Positions 10,106 to 15,155 of a DNA stretch of 64,000 nucleotides are shown piece by piece (the stretch's first letter is position 1; each line of letters opens with the position of its first letter). The DNA is from Colwellia sp. BRX10-3. Lineage in GTDB: Bacteria; Pseudomonadota; Gammaproteobacteria; Enterobacterales; Alteromonadaceae. The notes below the pieces were generated by a model. It did not search any database. It was not told the origin of the DNA and saw nothing but the letters and a program-made list of their open reading frames with translations. The position numbers were made by a program, and so were the translations under genes. The stretch covers positions 1-64,000 of the forward strand of contig NZ_JACGWA010000005.1 in the NCBI RefSeq assembly GCF_014077505.1, written 5' to 3'.

Positions 10106-10642
10106 ATGCCTAACAATAAAAATGCAAAAAAAGAACCACAACAAAATGAAGCGCCCGTTAATGAGCTTGACCAGCTTAGACAAATTGTATTTGGCGTAGC
10201 CGAGCAACAATTAAAAAAGCAAATTGCATTAACGCGCAGTGATTTGGAACACGCGTTAAATACACAAAGCATTAGCTTCACCCATCGCCTAGATAAAATG
10301 CAGGAAAATATCACCCAACGATTTTCTGATATAGAGCAACAAATACAGCATTTAGATAAAACCCATGATGATAATGAATTAGTTATTCAAAAAGATCTTG
10401 CTAATTTAGCCTCTGAGCATGAGATGTTTGCCACTGCTACTCAGCAAGACTTTAAAACTATGGAACAGTCACTTGATATTGGCAGTCAGACGCTATCTCA
10501 TAATTTTAATGAACAGCTTGAACAATTAAAAACCCATCTTGAAAGTGTTTCAAAAGAGCTTAGTTCGTCGAAAACCGATAGAAAAACACTGGCTAAATTA
10601 CTAGCAACCATGGCGACTAATTTAGAAGATGACGAATTATAA
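10106..10642 (+). CDS. Cytosolic coiled-coil protein of the small-GTPase cluster
   Basis: A 178-residue, highly polar protein with no signal or membrane segment. Residues 18-50 (ELDQLRQIVFGVAEQQLKKQ) are followed by long heptad-like helices rich in Gln, Glu and Lys through about residue 165. No named domain is recognised. Its stop overlaps the start of the next gene by one base (TAATG), so the two are translationally coupled and probably act together. A structural adaptor or scaffold for the downstream membrane protein and GTPase is a plausible inference. Confidence 0.8.
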   Translation: MPNNKNAKKEPQQNEAPVNELDQLRQIVFGVAEQQLKKQIALTRSDLEHALNTQSISFTHRLDKMQENITQRFSDIEQQIQHLDKTHDDNELVIQKDLANLASEHEMFATATQQDFKTMEQSLDIGSQTLSHNFNEQLEQLKTHLESVSKELSSSKTDRKTLAKLLATMATNLEDDEL

Positions 10643-12399
10643 TGCCAACCGATGCAGAAAAAGAAGCTGAATCAGCGCAACAACTAGAGAAAGTTCGCAC
10701 TCTTCTGCTTGGAAAAGACAACAGTAGAATAACAGAAAGTATAAAAAAAGATGCTCGTAAAATCGTGGCTGAAGTCATTACTGAGGCATTGCACGATAGA
10801 CAAAAAAAAGACCATTCTGTTGATAAAGTACTGCAACCATTTGTTGAGGATTCTGTTCAACTATCTGTTACCCACAATAGTGAACAAATGGTTATTTCTT
10901 TATACCCCATTGTCGGTAGTTTAGTAAGAAAGTCAGTGGCGGCTTTTCTCAGTGACTTTATGGAAAAAACTAATCAGCTATTGGAAAACAGCCTAACAAT
11001 AAAAGGACTAAAATGGCGCCTTAAAGCTCGGCAAGGCGGCGTTAGTTACGCACAGTATGCAGCATCTCAAACCTTTGTTTATCGCGTAGAGCATGTTTTT
11101 CTGATTCATAGAGAGACTGGCTTACTTTTGAATACCGTTGCATTGGATAATGAAAACAAAAGTGATGCTGATATCGTATCGGCAATGCTAACGGCAATTA
11201 ATGATTTTGTTGGTGACTCATTTTTAACTAACGATGAACGACTAAAAGAACAATTACAATCAGTTAGTACCGAAAACTTTAATTTACTGATAAAGCCTGG
11301 ACCAAGCGCCTTGGTTGTTGCAGCCGTAAGTGGTAATCCACCCCAAAGCATAAGTGACCAATTACAGCTAACGGTTGAAAATATACATAGTTTGTATCTT
11401 GAAGAACTCAATAGCTTTAACGGCGATAATCAACAGTTTGACAATACCGACAATCTGCTGCGTGACTGCTTATTAACAGAACAAAAAACAGCAACAGACG
11501 ATAAGAAAAAAACACCTTGGTTTGCTTGGGCAATCGTACTTTTAGTATTACTATTCGCCGGCTACAAAAGCTTTAACTGGGTAAAAAGCTCGCAACTTCA
11601 CAATAAAATAATGCAGTTAGACACACAGCCAGGTGTTATCATCAAACAACTTAAAATACATAGTCTTGATGATATAACGTTAGATATTTTACGCGACCCT
11701 GATGCGTTAAATATTACTGACTGGCTGAATAATAATGAAATGAATGCGGCACAATTCAAACTTATTGAACGGAACTATTATTCTTTTGATCCGCCAATAT
11801 TACGCGAACGAGCGCAACGCATAATTAAAGCATACCCAAACATTACCTTTACTTGGCAAAACAATACACTTGTACTTGCTGGCACATTAGACATCACCAA
11901 AACTGAACAACTACTTAATACATTAGCTATAGCTGGATTTAAAAGCGATAAAAACTTAACCTCCGAGCAATTGCAGCTCACATCTTCTCTCCCTACGTTA
12001 CAAAGTAAGCAAATCCAGCAACAAATATTTGATGACCTTATTGGCCGCATCGCCGCACTTCAACTAAATTTTCCCGTTGCTGTAGAAACTATTACCCCTG
12101 AAATGCATGTGTCACTACAAAAGCTTTATCAATATGTACAACAACTTGAGCCAGTAGCAAAAGCACTTAACATCAATTATGGCTTGTTAATATTGGGCAG
12201 CAGCGATAATACCGGCAATAAAACCACCAACAATATTATTAGCCTAAAAAGAGCCAACAATGCCTCTTATGAGTTACAACAAAAGGGCATAAACAAAGAT
12301 AAAATGTTTGTTTTAGGCCTAGGACAAATAGAAATTACCGCGATTAGTAGTAAGGCAAGAACTGTTATGTTTAACGTGATACATATAAATCAGGAATAA
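10642..12399 (+). CDS. Single-span membrane protein: roadblock/longin-like region plus OmpA-like C-terminus
   Basis: 585 residues. Residues 1-290 are cytosolic; residues 146-253 (VEHVFLIHRETGLLLNT, then DADIVSAMLTAINDFVGDSF and a strand LLIKPGPSALVVAAV) look like a roadblock/longin fold, the fold of MglB-type regulators of Ras-like GTPases. A single membrane helix spans about 293-309 (WFAWAIVLLVLLFAGY). The periplasmic part ends in an OmpA/MotB-like segment (about 515-585: GSSDNTG, SLKRANNASYELQQKGI, GLGQIE), a fold that often binds peptidoglycan. With the GTPase next door, I infer a transmembrane receptor or regulator for it. The roadblock call is by eye. Confidence 0.75.
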   Translation: MPTDAEKEAESAQQLEKVRTLLLGKDNSRITESIKKDARKIVAEVITEALHDRQKKDHSVDKVLQPFVEDSVQLSVTHNSEQMVISLYPIVGSLVRKSVAAFLSDFMEKTNQLLENSLTIKGLKWRLKARQGGVSYAQYAASQTFVYRVEHVFLIHRETGLLLNTVALDNENKSDADIVSAMLTAINDFVGDSFLTNDERLKEQLQSVSTENFNLLIKPGPSALVVAAVSGNPPQSISDQLQLTVENIHSLYLEELNSFNGDNQQFDNTDNLLRDCLLTEQKTATDDKKKTPWFAWAIVLLVLLFAGYKSFNWVKSSQLHNKIMQLDTQPGVIIKQLKIHSLDDITLDILRDPDALNITDWLNNNEMNAAQFKLIERNYYSFDPPILRERAQRIIKAYPNITFTWQNNTLVLAGTLDITKTEQLLNTLAIAGFKSDKNLTSEQLQLTSSLPTLQSKQIQQQIFDDLIGRIAALQLNFPVAVETITPEMHVSLQKLYQYVQQLEPVAKALNINYGLLILGSSDNTGNKTTNNIISLKRANNASYELQQKGINKDKMFVLGLGQIEITAISSKARTVMFNVIHINQE

Positions 12400-12524
12400 T
12401 AGAGTGACTCCGCTGAAAATAAGCGTAGTATTTTAATTATACTGAGGCGAACTTAATAATTGTTCATTTAGCAAGTATTAAAGCTTAGCAAAACCAATAA
12501 GATGTCGAATATGGAGATGACGCT

Positions 12525-13019
12525 TTGATTCAAAAAAAAATCTGCCTTCTAGGGGCGTCCAGTGTAGGAAAAACAAGTTTAGTCAAACAATTTGTAGAAG
12601 GTATTTTTAGTGAAAAGTATCTTACGACCATTGGTGTGAAAATTGACAAAAAAACCATATTTTTAGAGAATGAAGAAATTCAGCTTATGCTCTGGGATAT
12701 GGAAGGTAATGATACTTATAACGTTTTCCAAGAAAGATATTTACGTGGCGCGGCCGGTTATATCATAGTAGTTGATCAAACCCGTGCAACATCATTACAT
12801 GAAGGTTTAGATATCCACACCCTTGTTCGCCAAGTAACGGACTGCCCCGCCATATTAGCTATAAATAAAAGTGATTTACCTGCCACTTGGAATATGGATG
12901 ACAGTGAAAATAAATCCTACCAAAATCTGTTTGATTTACAGTTTTCCACCAGCGCTAAAACAGGATCCAATGTGGAAGAAATGTTTTCAGCCCTGGCTAA
13001 GCTATTATTAAGGAGTTAG
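12525..13019 (+). CDS. Rab/Ras-like small GTPase
   Basis: 164 residues starting at TTG, with GGAG (12513-12516) 8 bases upstream; ATGs just upstream run into a stop. All G motifs are visible: P-loop GASSVGKTS (10-18), switch I YLTTIGVKIDKKT (32-44) strikingly like eukaryotic Rab, G3 WDMEGND (57-63), G4 NKSD (114-117), G5 STSAKTG (141-147). The usual catalytic Gln after DxxG is Asn62, so intrinsic hydrolysis may be slow and depend on a partner. There is no lipidation cysteine at the C-terminus. It sits between a roadblock-like membrane protein and a GGDEF-EAL protein, suggesting a signalling module. Confidence 0.88.
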   Translation: MIQKKICLLGASSVGKTSLVKQFVEGIFSEKYLTTIGVKIDKKTIFLENEEIQLMLWDMEGNDTYNVFQERYLRGAAGYIIVVDQTRATSLHEGLDIHTLVRQVTDCPAILAINKSDLPATWNMDDSENKSYQNLFDLQFSTSAKTGSNVEEMFSALAKLLLRS

Positions 13020-13022
13020 AAG

Positions 13023-15155
13023 ATGACACAGCTACTGAATAAAGTCATCAATGCATTAGAACAAATTATTTTAGAAGTTATCGACACTAACACAGGCACA
13101 GTGAAATGGGTTGAAGGTGACGGCGAATGGGCGATTGACTTATTCCCAAACGCGGGTAATCAACAGGCATTTGCTATTAATGAAGAAACTCCATTTTTGC
13201 AGGACTTTCTTTTTGACGCCACATTAATATGGCAAGCAGCTGAAAATGGTAAGTTACGTTCAGGCTTATGGACCGAAACAACTCACACTAATAAAGAGCT
13301 GTATCTAGAAGCGATTGCCATCAAGCAAGACCAGCATAATCTTCTGGTTATCACCAATCAACGTGAAGATTTTGAATTTCAGCAAAAAACCAAACAATTA
13401 GCTCGTGAAGTTTTATTATCATACGATCGTCTTTTTTTAAAAAATGAATATTTACATACCCGTTTACTGTCTATTTTAAAACAGCCTCCTGAGCAAAGTA
13501 ATATCTTAACAACACTCACTAAAGTTATTGAAAATGCAGAGTTTGCAGTGTTAATCGCGAGCAGTGACTTCAGCACTAATATTGAAAATTCAGCCGCAAT
13601 AAAACTCTTCGATCAAGGTACTTTGATAAGCAGTCAACCGTCTCGCCCCATAGATATCATTCTTAGATTAATGCAAAACCAATTACCTGAGTACGAGCGA
13701 ATTTTATCGACTAACTCTAGTTGGGATGGTGAACTATGCTGGATATCGCCACCATCAACACTTAAATGGCTTAAAGTTGCTTTTTATCCAGTTAAAAATA
13801 AACTCAACGAAGTTGAGAATTGGATAATATTCGCCAACGACATTAGTACAATTAAACACTTAATACAGCGCAATGAGCAACTTGCGCTGCAAGATATGTT
13901 AACTGAATTACCTAATCGCTTTTCTTTTTTGCAAATGTTAGAAAAACATATTGCGGCAAAACAGCCATTTTATTTACTGTATATAGACATTAATGACTTT
14001 AGACGACACAACGAATTTTATGGCCATGACCAAGGCGACAAGCTACTAATAGAGCTGAGTAAACGCATCAGTGCTGTGGTCAAAACTTCAGACTTTATCG
14101 CGCGAGTCGGTGGTGACGAGTTTGCAATAATGCTTAATAATATTGACAACCAAAAGGCCTGTAAAATTGCTATCCAGCGCATTATTGACAGCATAAATAA
14201 GCCATTTCATACTAAAAAGTCAGAAAGCTTTAATATTAGCATCAGCATTGGCGCTGCCAATTACCCTCATGATGGACAAAGTGTTGAAGAGTTAATGAAG
14301 TTTGTCGACTTAAGCGCTTATAACGGTAAAAAGAATAGAAAAAATTCGGTACAATTTTACTCGCAGTCAATGAAAGACGCCTCACATCATTTAATTATAG
14401 TGGAGCAAAATTTAAGGCAAGCAATCAAAAACAATGAATTTGAATTATATTTACAACCGATTATCGATATAAAAACTAATCGCATCAATAAAGCTGAAGC
14501 GCTGATCCGTTGGAATCACCCTGAGAAGGGTTTAATTAATCCGGATGATTTTATTCCTATCGCAGAAAAGAGTGGCTTGATCATCGCAATCGGCGAATGG
14601 GTAATTAGCCGAACTTGCCAAATGGCCAAACAAATTTGCGATCTTGGATTTGATATTAAAATATCAATGAACCTATCTCCTTCGCAAGTCACTGATAATA
14701 ATTTATTTGCTTATTTAAGTACCTGCATTAACGATAATAAAATTAACCCCCGCTTATTAGAGCTAGAAGTCACCGAAGGTGTCTTAGTTGATGATTATTC
14801 AGCCGCAGAGAAGTTATTGAGCAACGTAAGAACGATTGGTATGAGTGTCTCAGTTGATGATTTTGGTACCGGTTACAGCTCGTTGTCGTATTTGAAAAAA
14901 TTGCCTTTGGACTTTTTGAAAATTGACCGTTCATTTATTAAAGAAATTGTTGCTGATGACAACGATAAAGCGATAGTACGTGCGGTTATTTCCATGGCAC
15001 ATAACTTAAATTTATGTGTCACCGCGGAAGGCGTAGAAACAAAAGAGCAATTAAGTTTTCTGGTTGATAATTCATGTAATTCGGTACAAGGCTACATTTT
15101 TAGTCGACCAATTAAATTAGATTATTTTATCAAATTACTGCATGAACAAAAGTAA
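13023..15155 (+). CDS. Cytosolic GGDEF-EAL c-di-GMP enzyme of the small-GTPase cluster
   Basis: 710 residues without membrane segments. Residues 1-280 contain two putative sensory regions; the second (about 170-280) is PAS-like. The GGDEF domain has intact RVGGDEF (361-367) with Lys instead of Arg in the RxxD inhibitory site. The EAL domain is complete: EALIRW (492-497), NLSPSQ, LEVTEG, DDFGTGYSS (612-620), KIDRSF, AEGVET. Both synthesis and hydrolysis of c-di-GMP are possible. The ribosome-binding site AAGGAG overlaps the GTPase stop 3 bp upstream, so the two are tightly coupled. I infer that GTPase state controls this enzyme, perhaps through residues 1-120. Confidence 0.9.
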   Translation: MTQLLNKVINALEQIILEVIDTNTGTVKWVEGDGEWAIDLFPNAGNQQAFAINEETPFLQDFLFDATLIWQAAENGKLRSGLWTETTHTNKELYLEAIAIKQDQHNLLVITNQREDFEFQQKTKQLAREVLLSYDRLFLKNEYLHTRLLSILKQPPEQSNILTTLTKVIENAEFAVLIASSDFSTNIENSAAIKLFDQGTLISSQPSRPIDIILRLMQNQLPEYERILSTNSSWDGELCWISPPSTLKWLKVAFYPVKNKLNEVENWIIFANDISTIKHLIQRNEQLALQDMLTELPNRFSFLQMLEKHIAAKQPFYLLYIDINDFRRHNEFYGHDQGDKLLIELSKRISAVVKTSDFIARVGGDEFAIMLNNIDNQKACKIAIQRIIDSINKPFHTKKSESFNISISIGAANYPHDGQSVEELMKFVDLSAYNGKKNRKNSVQFYSQSMKDASHHLIIVEQNLRQAIKNNEFELYLQPIIDIKTNRINKAEALIRWNHPEKGLINPDDFIPIAEKSGLIIAIGEWVISRTCQMAKQICDLGFDIKISMNLSPSQVTDNNLFAYLSTCINDNKINPRLLELEVTEGVLVDDYSAAEKLLSNVRTIGMSVSVDDFGTGYSSLSYLKKLPLDFLKIDRSFIKEIVADDNDKAIVRAVISMAHNLNLCVTAEGVETKEQLSFLVDNSCNSVQGYIFSRPIKLDYFIKLLHEQK

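Follow-up and report, generated by a model that had tools for sequence, protein, structure and literature searches.

What is a Rab-like GTPase doing in a bacterial gene set that also encodes a membrane protein with an OmpA-like end and an enzyme of cyclic di-GMP (c-di-GMP) metabolism? The question is raised by positions 10,106 to 15,155 of a 64,000-nucleotide stretch of Colwellia sp. BRX10-3 (contig NZ_JACGWA010000005.1; the whole stretch is called the window here), in which four open reading frames (ORFs) on the plus strand encode proteins of 178, 585, 164 and 710 amino acids (aa). As the initial annotation of the window had it, the four genes run in the same direction, the first two overlapping by 1 base pair (bp) and the last two separated by 3 bp; the spacer between genes 2 and 3 measures 125 bp, and within it no terminator-like site was found on the plus strand and promoter-like sites were not commoner than in shuffled sequence. 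Judged by its sequences, the set is a Group 1 Rup GTPase module, matching the composition given in 2014 by Wuichet and Sogaard-Andersen (PMC4316618). We predict a longin/roadblock-like fold for a domain of its membrane protein and a PAS fold for the N-terminal region of its output protein, which carries a conserved glutamine, Gln125. The features of the locus are as follows.

10106..10642, plus strand: small partner protein, 178 aa, probably a coiled coil (ORF; weak Pfam matches; homologues upstream of the membrane gene)
10642..12399, plus strand: membrane protein, 585 aa, with a helical N-terminus, a predicted longin/roadblock-like domain, one transmembrane helix and a periplasmic OmpA-like end
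11074..11412, plus strand: predicted longin/roadblock-like domain, aa 145-257 (AlphaFold2 on 56 rows; Foldseek against the PDB)
11518..11574, plus strand: single transmembrane helix, about aa 293-311 (hydropathy maximum)
12139..12333, plus strand: OmpA (peptidoglycan-binding) match, aa 500-564 (Pfam PF00691)
12525..13019, plus strand: Ras/Rab-like small GTPase (Group 1 Rup), 164 aa, TTG start (Pfam, PDB neighbours, motifs)
12693..12710, plus strand: G3 motif WDMEGN, with Asn at the catalytic-Gln position (alignments)
13023..15155, plus strand: output protein, 710 aa, with a predicted PAS-fold N-terminus, GGDEF and EAL
13062..13358, plus strand: predicted PAS-fold domain, aa 14-112, common to the output types (AlphaFold2, Foldseek, two alignments)
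13395..13397, plus strand: codon of Gln125, invariant, in the PAS-associated helix (alignments)
13884..14345, plus strand: GGDEF domain, aa 288-441, with the GGDEF motif kept and KTSD in place of an RxxD I-site
14406..15110, plus strand: EAL domain, aa 462-696, with the signature motifs kept

A Group 1 Rup GTPase module

In its passages on Group 1 Rup GTPases, the 2014 paper defines these proteins and their gene neighbourhood from a genome survey, without experiments, and names as the parts a protein predicted to be a coiled coil; a second protein whose domain has no assigned function and in many cases leads on to a membrane helix and an OmpA end; the GTPase; and an output, in the typical case a c-di-GMP fusion protein or histidine kinase, in which an N-terminal Gln is invariant (PMC4316618). 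The same passages name gammaproteobacteria and c-di-GMP fusion outputs, call the Rup G motifs "remarkably similar" to those of the eukaryotic Ras superfamily, give the Group 1 GTPase as lacking the G3 Gln, suggest that a Gln is supplied in trans, and record no experimental characterisation of any Rup member as of 2014. The window's genes have the same four parts, the same missing G3 Gln and the same invariant N-terminal Gln in the output, and the statement in the initial annotation that no described system has this composition was therefore wrong. Among open-licence PMC papers we found no later description of the Group 1 module, and a 2026 preprint (PMC13015309), in its mention of Rup, merely restates the 2014 classification. 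While the composition, the loss of the G3 Gln, the output Gln and the idea of a Gln in trans were thus already known, new here are two predicted folds, the conservation of the Gln over more output types and a wider range of outputs: the membrane-protein domain is one of unknown function in the 2014 passages, which also give the N-terminal region of the output no fold, and to the outputs named there as typical we add HD-GYP, class III cyclase, SpoIIE and sigma-54 proteins.

The GTPase matches the Pfam Ras model (E 2.8e-31), its closest PDB sequences are Rab35, Rab5 and Rab1, and in alignment it has the eukaryote-like G1-G5 motifs of the Ras superfamily by which membership is judged. The initial description of the protein as Rab-like was sound, and the accompanying claim of a full set of G motifs breaks down at the catalytic Gln of G3. 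This motif reads WDMEGN in the window, with Asn replacing the usual Gln, and that Gln is missing in 144 of the 145 distinct GTPases that cover the site (146 rows, one of them cut). The genome has four Ras-model matches, the other three of which sit in open frames of 464, 612 and 894 aa. A divergent subgroup of loci (L111-L119) has the G3 motif WDTDG and only partial domain matching; three of its outputs (L111, L112 and L115) are kinases, with a Gln visible by eye in the PAS-associated helix.

The small protein has weak Pfam matches only, several of them to helical or coiled-coil families, and is probably a coiled coil. Its N-terminal motif is ELDQLRQIVFG, and the pattern [LIVM]xx[LIVM]Rx[LIVMF][LIVMF]x[GK] opens both this protein and the membrane protein (window positions 10106-10200 and 10642-10720). 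The pattern, which was drawn up after viewing the window sequences, occurs in 126 of 131 small proteins and 96 of 146 membrane proteins, compared with 15 of 1628 other ORFs from the same loci, a background that includes spurious ORFs. Its presence in both proteins suggests a common docking site.

Predicted folds of the membrane protein and the output

The membrane protein ends, as had been proposed, in an OmpA-like part (PF00691, E 4.5e-7, aa 500-564), and Asp at aa 522 and Arg at aa 537, counted along the protein string, fall within the OmpA binding motif; we take these two to be the residues that bind the peptidoglycan peptide. A conserved domain, a transmembrane helix and an OmpA part are also what characterises the membrane protein next to Group 1 Rup GTPases. 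An AlphaFold2 model was made from the window sequence and 55 relatives from genome contigs (56 rows in all), in which residues 4-132 form long helices and residues 145-257 follow the order strand-strand-helix-strand-strand-strand-helix. A Foldseek search of the PDB with the domain model returned 795 matches up to E 10. Among the best 50 of these, 29 come from structures of longin proteins (AP complexes, Mon1-Ccz1, TRAPP, COPI, Fuzzy-Inturned and SRX) and 21 from structures of roadblock proteins (Asgard Roadblock2/3, Rag/Gtr complexes, Ragulator, MglC, MglB and two flagellar doublets), as assigned in part from the titles. The titles of 48 of the listed 50 name longin or roadblock proteins or complexes known to contain them, and those of the two flagellar-doublet rows give no chain name. 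Most rows lack a chain name, so that single rows may be misassigned: in the top match, 9ddt_B, the chain may be an AP sigma subunit or else the pseudoGTPase that partners it, and the alignments of several Rag/Gtr rows have root-mean-square deviations of 14-16. Taken together, the matches support at the level of fold the roadblock/longin guess of the initial annotation, and we describe the domain as longin/roadblock-like by predicted fold, assigning it to neither family. The two families are given as related by circular permutation in the relevant part of PMC3521125. The commonest Pfam match among relatives of window positions 10642-11514 is to the uncharacterised DUF2884 (10 of 56 rows, weak, best E 9e-4).

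For the output protein, AlphaFold2 on aa 1-153 with 38 rows gave a model with a mean predicted local distance difference test score (pLDDT) of 92.1 and a predicted template modelling score (pTM) of 0.75. Three Foldseek matches to it fall below E 0.001, the best two of which are titled PAS, and we predict that this region has a PAS fold; none of the 38 N-terminal rows gave a Pfam PAS match. Gln125 lies in the model after the last strand, near the start of a long helix (residues 114-152), and in an alignment of 30 output N-termini with four catalytic types it is the sole invariant column. We infer that it is the Gln meant in the Rup figure of the 2014 paper (PMC4316618).

Gene order and exchange of outputs

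Conservation of the gene order, beyond what chance would give, was found within and outside the family. Full-length relatives of the membrane protein are present in 40 of 147 genomes of the window's own family (its own included, and one split in two), and in the 30 best-scoring of these 40 loci, again including its own, tblastn recovered all four genes in the same order (30/30). The split case, G004:C3:95459-97172, has the membrane protein in two overlapping pieces in different frames. Four of the 44 matching family genomes had weak OmpA-type matches only and were dismissed as unrelated. In ten longer family stretches, seven of them from genomes already counted, gene 4 was found in all ten and gene 1 went undetected in one (L258). 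The flanking genes (two window genes on each side) were matched in just one of the ten, from the same genus, the flanks available being only about 0.5-2 kb.

Profile matches to the domain occur in 30 of 369 genomes of the class and in 50 of 398 of the phylum, two samples that overlap. A GTPase match at E<=1e-15 was found in 29 of the 30 class genomes with the domain versus 8 of the 339 without it, and 3.0 shared genomes would be expected if the two were independent; seven of the eight matched at 1e-17 to 1e-28 and one, G510, at 4e-59. In 40 stretches drawn from these matches, all outside the family, the GTPase adjoins the membrane gene in 36 and the small protein was recognised in 35. The four stretches without an adjoining GTPase comprise one at a contig edge (L095) and three with none nearby (L102, L104 and L120).

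A GTPase scan of 84,980 species genomes gave at least 587 confirmed relatives, and the best 80 loci, many of them from metagenome-assembled genomes, were kept. Judged by their record titles, they come from Cyanobacteriota (33), Pseudomonadota (19), Acidobacteriota (6), delta-type proteobacteria (5), Deinococcota (4), Bacteroidota (4), Verrucomicrobiota (4), Nitrospirota (2), Gemmatimonadota (1) and Myxococcota (1), with one ungrouped. The membrane gene lies directly upstream of the GTPase on the same strand in 71 of the 80, the small protein precedes the membrane gene in 66, and a PAS-type protein lies downstream of the GTPase in 76. Among the nine loci without a membrane gene directly upstream, two are near a contig edge (L132 and L207), two have it on the other strand (L133 and L179), three have a membrane-gene match elsewhere in the locus or a broken frame (L169, L193 and L195), and two (L183 and L188) have none within about 6 kb. 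The pair of membrane gene and GTPase is present in all ten named groups and the full four-part order in eight; the two exceptions are Deinococcota and Myxococcota, the single locus of the latter being truncated on the left. Loci L147, L151, L165 and L182 (Meiothermus, Thermaceae) have no PAS output downstream of the GTPase.

The PAS domains fall into two sequence types, and Gln is present in 166 of the 166 distinct rows that cover the site, across both types, all output classes and PAS-only proteins (2 of 168 rows end before the site). These rows were picked by profile, so that PAS domains without the Gln could be missed, a bias limited by the presence of such a row downstream of the GTPase in 76 of the 80 loci. 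PAS-only proteins, which measure about 133 aa in many Cyanobacteriota, retain the Gln, as do 31 of 32 type-A standalone rows, the sole miss being incomplete before the site; a role in linking the PAS domain to an enzyme is therefore an unlikely explanation of the residue.

Attached to this constant PAS part the outputs are exchanged, being GGDEF-EAL, HD-GYP (another class of c-di-GMP phosphodiesterase), class III cyclase, histidine kinase, SpoIIE, sigma-54 or the PAS domain alone. By Pfam, 20 outputs from other genomes of the phylum comprise five HD-GYP proteins, seven kinase-receiver hybrids, three kinases (one recognised by its ATPase domain alone) and five class III cyclases. Ten further outputs, mostly chosen because the profiles had left them unclassed, comprise four SpoIIE phosphatases, one sigma-54 activator, two with a kinase ATPase domain, one cyclase and two unmatched, one of which is cut by a contig end. 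On a GTPase tree at least 12 output changes are counted over 110 labelled rows of 128; we do not use this count as strong evidence, the tree having been built by a quick method with cyanobacterial and family rows thinned, and with family outputs labelled GGDEF-EAL though cut by the locus end. One locus, on the Mesorhizobium plasmid pWSM1497 (L211), is annotated as an OmpA protein, a Rab family GTPase and a cyclase. Two more annotated adenylate/guanylate cyclase genes lie close to this cyclase-output module.

The window's own output matches GGDEF (E 2.3e-38) and EAL (E 3.1e-76) in Pfam. The signature residues of EAL domains are those of c-di-GMP hydrolysis, and RxxD is the I-site motif. Of 11 outputs examined in the window's family, all keep the EAL signature residues, two of them reading EVL in place of EAL, and seven keep the GGDEF motif; an RxxD I-site is missing from the window's output. 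As conservation is stronger in EAL than in GGDEF, hydrolysis is a likelier role than c-di-GMP turnover in general, and the conserved activity of the window's output is probably c-di-GMP hydrolysis by EAL. Five outputs from other genomes of the class carry HD-GYP, likewise a phosphodiesterase class, at this place, which is in keeping with that reading.

A proposed GTPase cycle and its alternatives

How might the parts work together? We propose, with a probability of about 50%, that a wall-anchored longin/roadblock-like protein acts on the Rab-like GTPase, which acts on the PAS output, with Gln125 closing the cycle. The OmpA end would anchor the membrane protein to the cell wall and the predicted domain would be displayed on the cytoplasmic side, where it would bind the GTPase and control its loading at the membrane, in the way that longin and roadblock proteins act on Rab, Rag and MglA. 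The small coiled-coil protein, which shares its opening motif with the membrane protein, would probably join the complex. GTP-bound GTPase would bind the PAS domain of the output and alter its activity, which in the window would most likely be EAL hydrolysis of c-di-GMP, judging from motif conservation. Gln125 would supply the catalytic Gln that the GTPase lacks, in line with the 2014 suggestion, so that the effector would also end the signal. The relay from cell wall through GTPase to c-di-GMP put forward in the initial annotation is in this sense plausible.

Several results weigh against this mechanism. The membrane-protein model is of moderate confidence (mean pLDDT 78.9, pTM 0.54), and a single Foldseek match of the domain falls below E 0.001. 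Pfam on the single membrane protein gave no roadblock match at E up to 1, the best related match among the 56 domain rows was Fuz_longin_1 (one row, E 0.08), and a PDB profile search with the domain gave nothing up to E 10. Comparison by hhalign with 25 Robl_LC7 proteins (one of 26 ORFs was dropped for length) gave non-significant probabilities of 2.8 and 3.4%, with 0.1-1.9% for unrelated controls (GTPase, PAS and coiled-coil alignments); in a rerun with 146 more diverse rows, 74 aligned columns seem by eye to be in the register expected from the fold, at a non-significant score. As sequence and profile similarity is non-significant, we call the domain fold-alike and not a family member; and since Pfam gives no roadblock match, the roadblock/longin region of the initial annotation is supported by fold prediction and not by sequence. 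Gene content also speaks on this side. The small protein and membrane gene occur without a neighbouring GTPase at L102, L104 and L120: a GTPase lies on another contig in the genome of the first (G429), and no Rup-type GTPase match was found anywhere in the genomes of the other two (G322 and G541). All four Deinococcota loci are without a nearby PAS output, and L183 and L188 pair the GTPase with a PAS output (HD-GYP and kinase, respectively) in the absence of a nearby membrane gene. One GTPase of the 145 (L010, 819-1334, minus strand) has the usual Gln (WDIEGQ) at a locus whose output Gln is also kept. Finally, we found no interaction, exchange or GTPase assay for the module in open-licence PMC papers.

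The main rival, which we regard as unlikely, reverses the flow: the PAS-enzyme protein would serve as a GTPase-activating protein (GAP), and the output would be formed by the GTPase together with its wall-anchored partner, for example in polar positioning as with MglA/MglB, for which a polarity role is given in the relevant part of PMC2907295. A GAP would be expected to supply just such an invariant Gln, and its retention in enzyme-less PAS-only proteins is a good fit. In 24 of the 33 cyanobacterial loci the gene after the GTPase encodes a type-A PAS-only protein. Against this rival, one input domain is found with six kinds of output domain, as is usual where a shared input serves interchangeable outputs.

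Unlikely too, and ranked behind this rival, is a role of the domain as no more than a platform on which the GTPase is held at the membrane while exchange occurs spontaneously or through an unlinked factor, with the OmpA end as an anchor and not a sensor. Roadblock and longin domains serve as platforms in Ragulator and TRAPP, both of which are among the listed fold matches, and three of ten membrane proteins scanned (L147, L107 and L111) have no OmpA match; retention of the match in the other seven, one of them below the Pfam cut-off, suggests that the periplasmic end matters. That the four genes are merely co-regulated and act separately, which the 125-bp gap would allow, is very improbable given the same gene order in several phyla, the flanks, nearly unmatched over the 0.5-2 kb or so available, and the co-occurrence of domain and GTPase in 29 of 30 genomes.

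The proposed wall-to-output mechanism has partial counterparts among known systems. The Myxococcus polarity system MglA/MglB/MglC likewise joins a small Ras-like GTPase to a roadblock-fold partner, and the listed fold matches include Thermus MglB and Myxococcus MglC; it differs in that the GTPase here is Rab-like and its partner domain forms part of one protein with a membrane anchor and an OmpA end. The genome has no match to Robl_LC7 (PF03259, the MglB type), and with the non-significant profile comparison the MglA/MglB parallel drawn at the outset survives as an analogy only. The actinobacterial conservons CvnA-D are also small operons of a GTPase, a roadblock protein and a signalling enzyme, as outlined in the 2014 paper, whose passages on them do not mention an OmpA part (PMC4316618). 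The four genes here include no kinase and no Robl_LC7 (MglB-family) protein by Pfam, and so do not make up the CvnA-CvnD set, CvnC not having been specifically sought. Counterparts in fold are the eukaryotic longin regulators of Rab (Mon1-Ccz1 and TRAPP) and the AP sigma subunits, whose host complexes are among the best listed matches and whose partners are Rab or Arf GTPases; they differ in lacking significant sequence similarity to the domain (the single Fuz_longin_1 row). Yeast Ras gates adenylyl cyclase, a logic like that predicted for the cyclase-output loci, although no homology is claimed and the window's output is not a cyclase.

The value of the finding lies in two predicted folds, one for the receptor and one for the effector, a single residue and the range of outputs, which make the module directly testable. 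Extended to the family as a whole, and more tentatively than for the window, the module may be a general bacterial Rab-longin system, in which a wall-anchored longin/roadblock receptor would load a Rab-like GTPase and one PAS effector, bearing at least six outputs or standing alone, would supply the catalytic Gln and be both receiver and terminator of the signal. The longin/roadblock match bears on the proposed origin of eukaryotic longins from prokaryotic roadblock-type proteins, as put forward in the relevant part of PMC3521125. Should the receptor domain prove to be a genuine longin, eukaryotes would not have invented the combination of Rab-type GTPase and longin.

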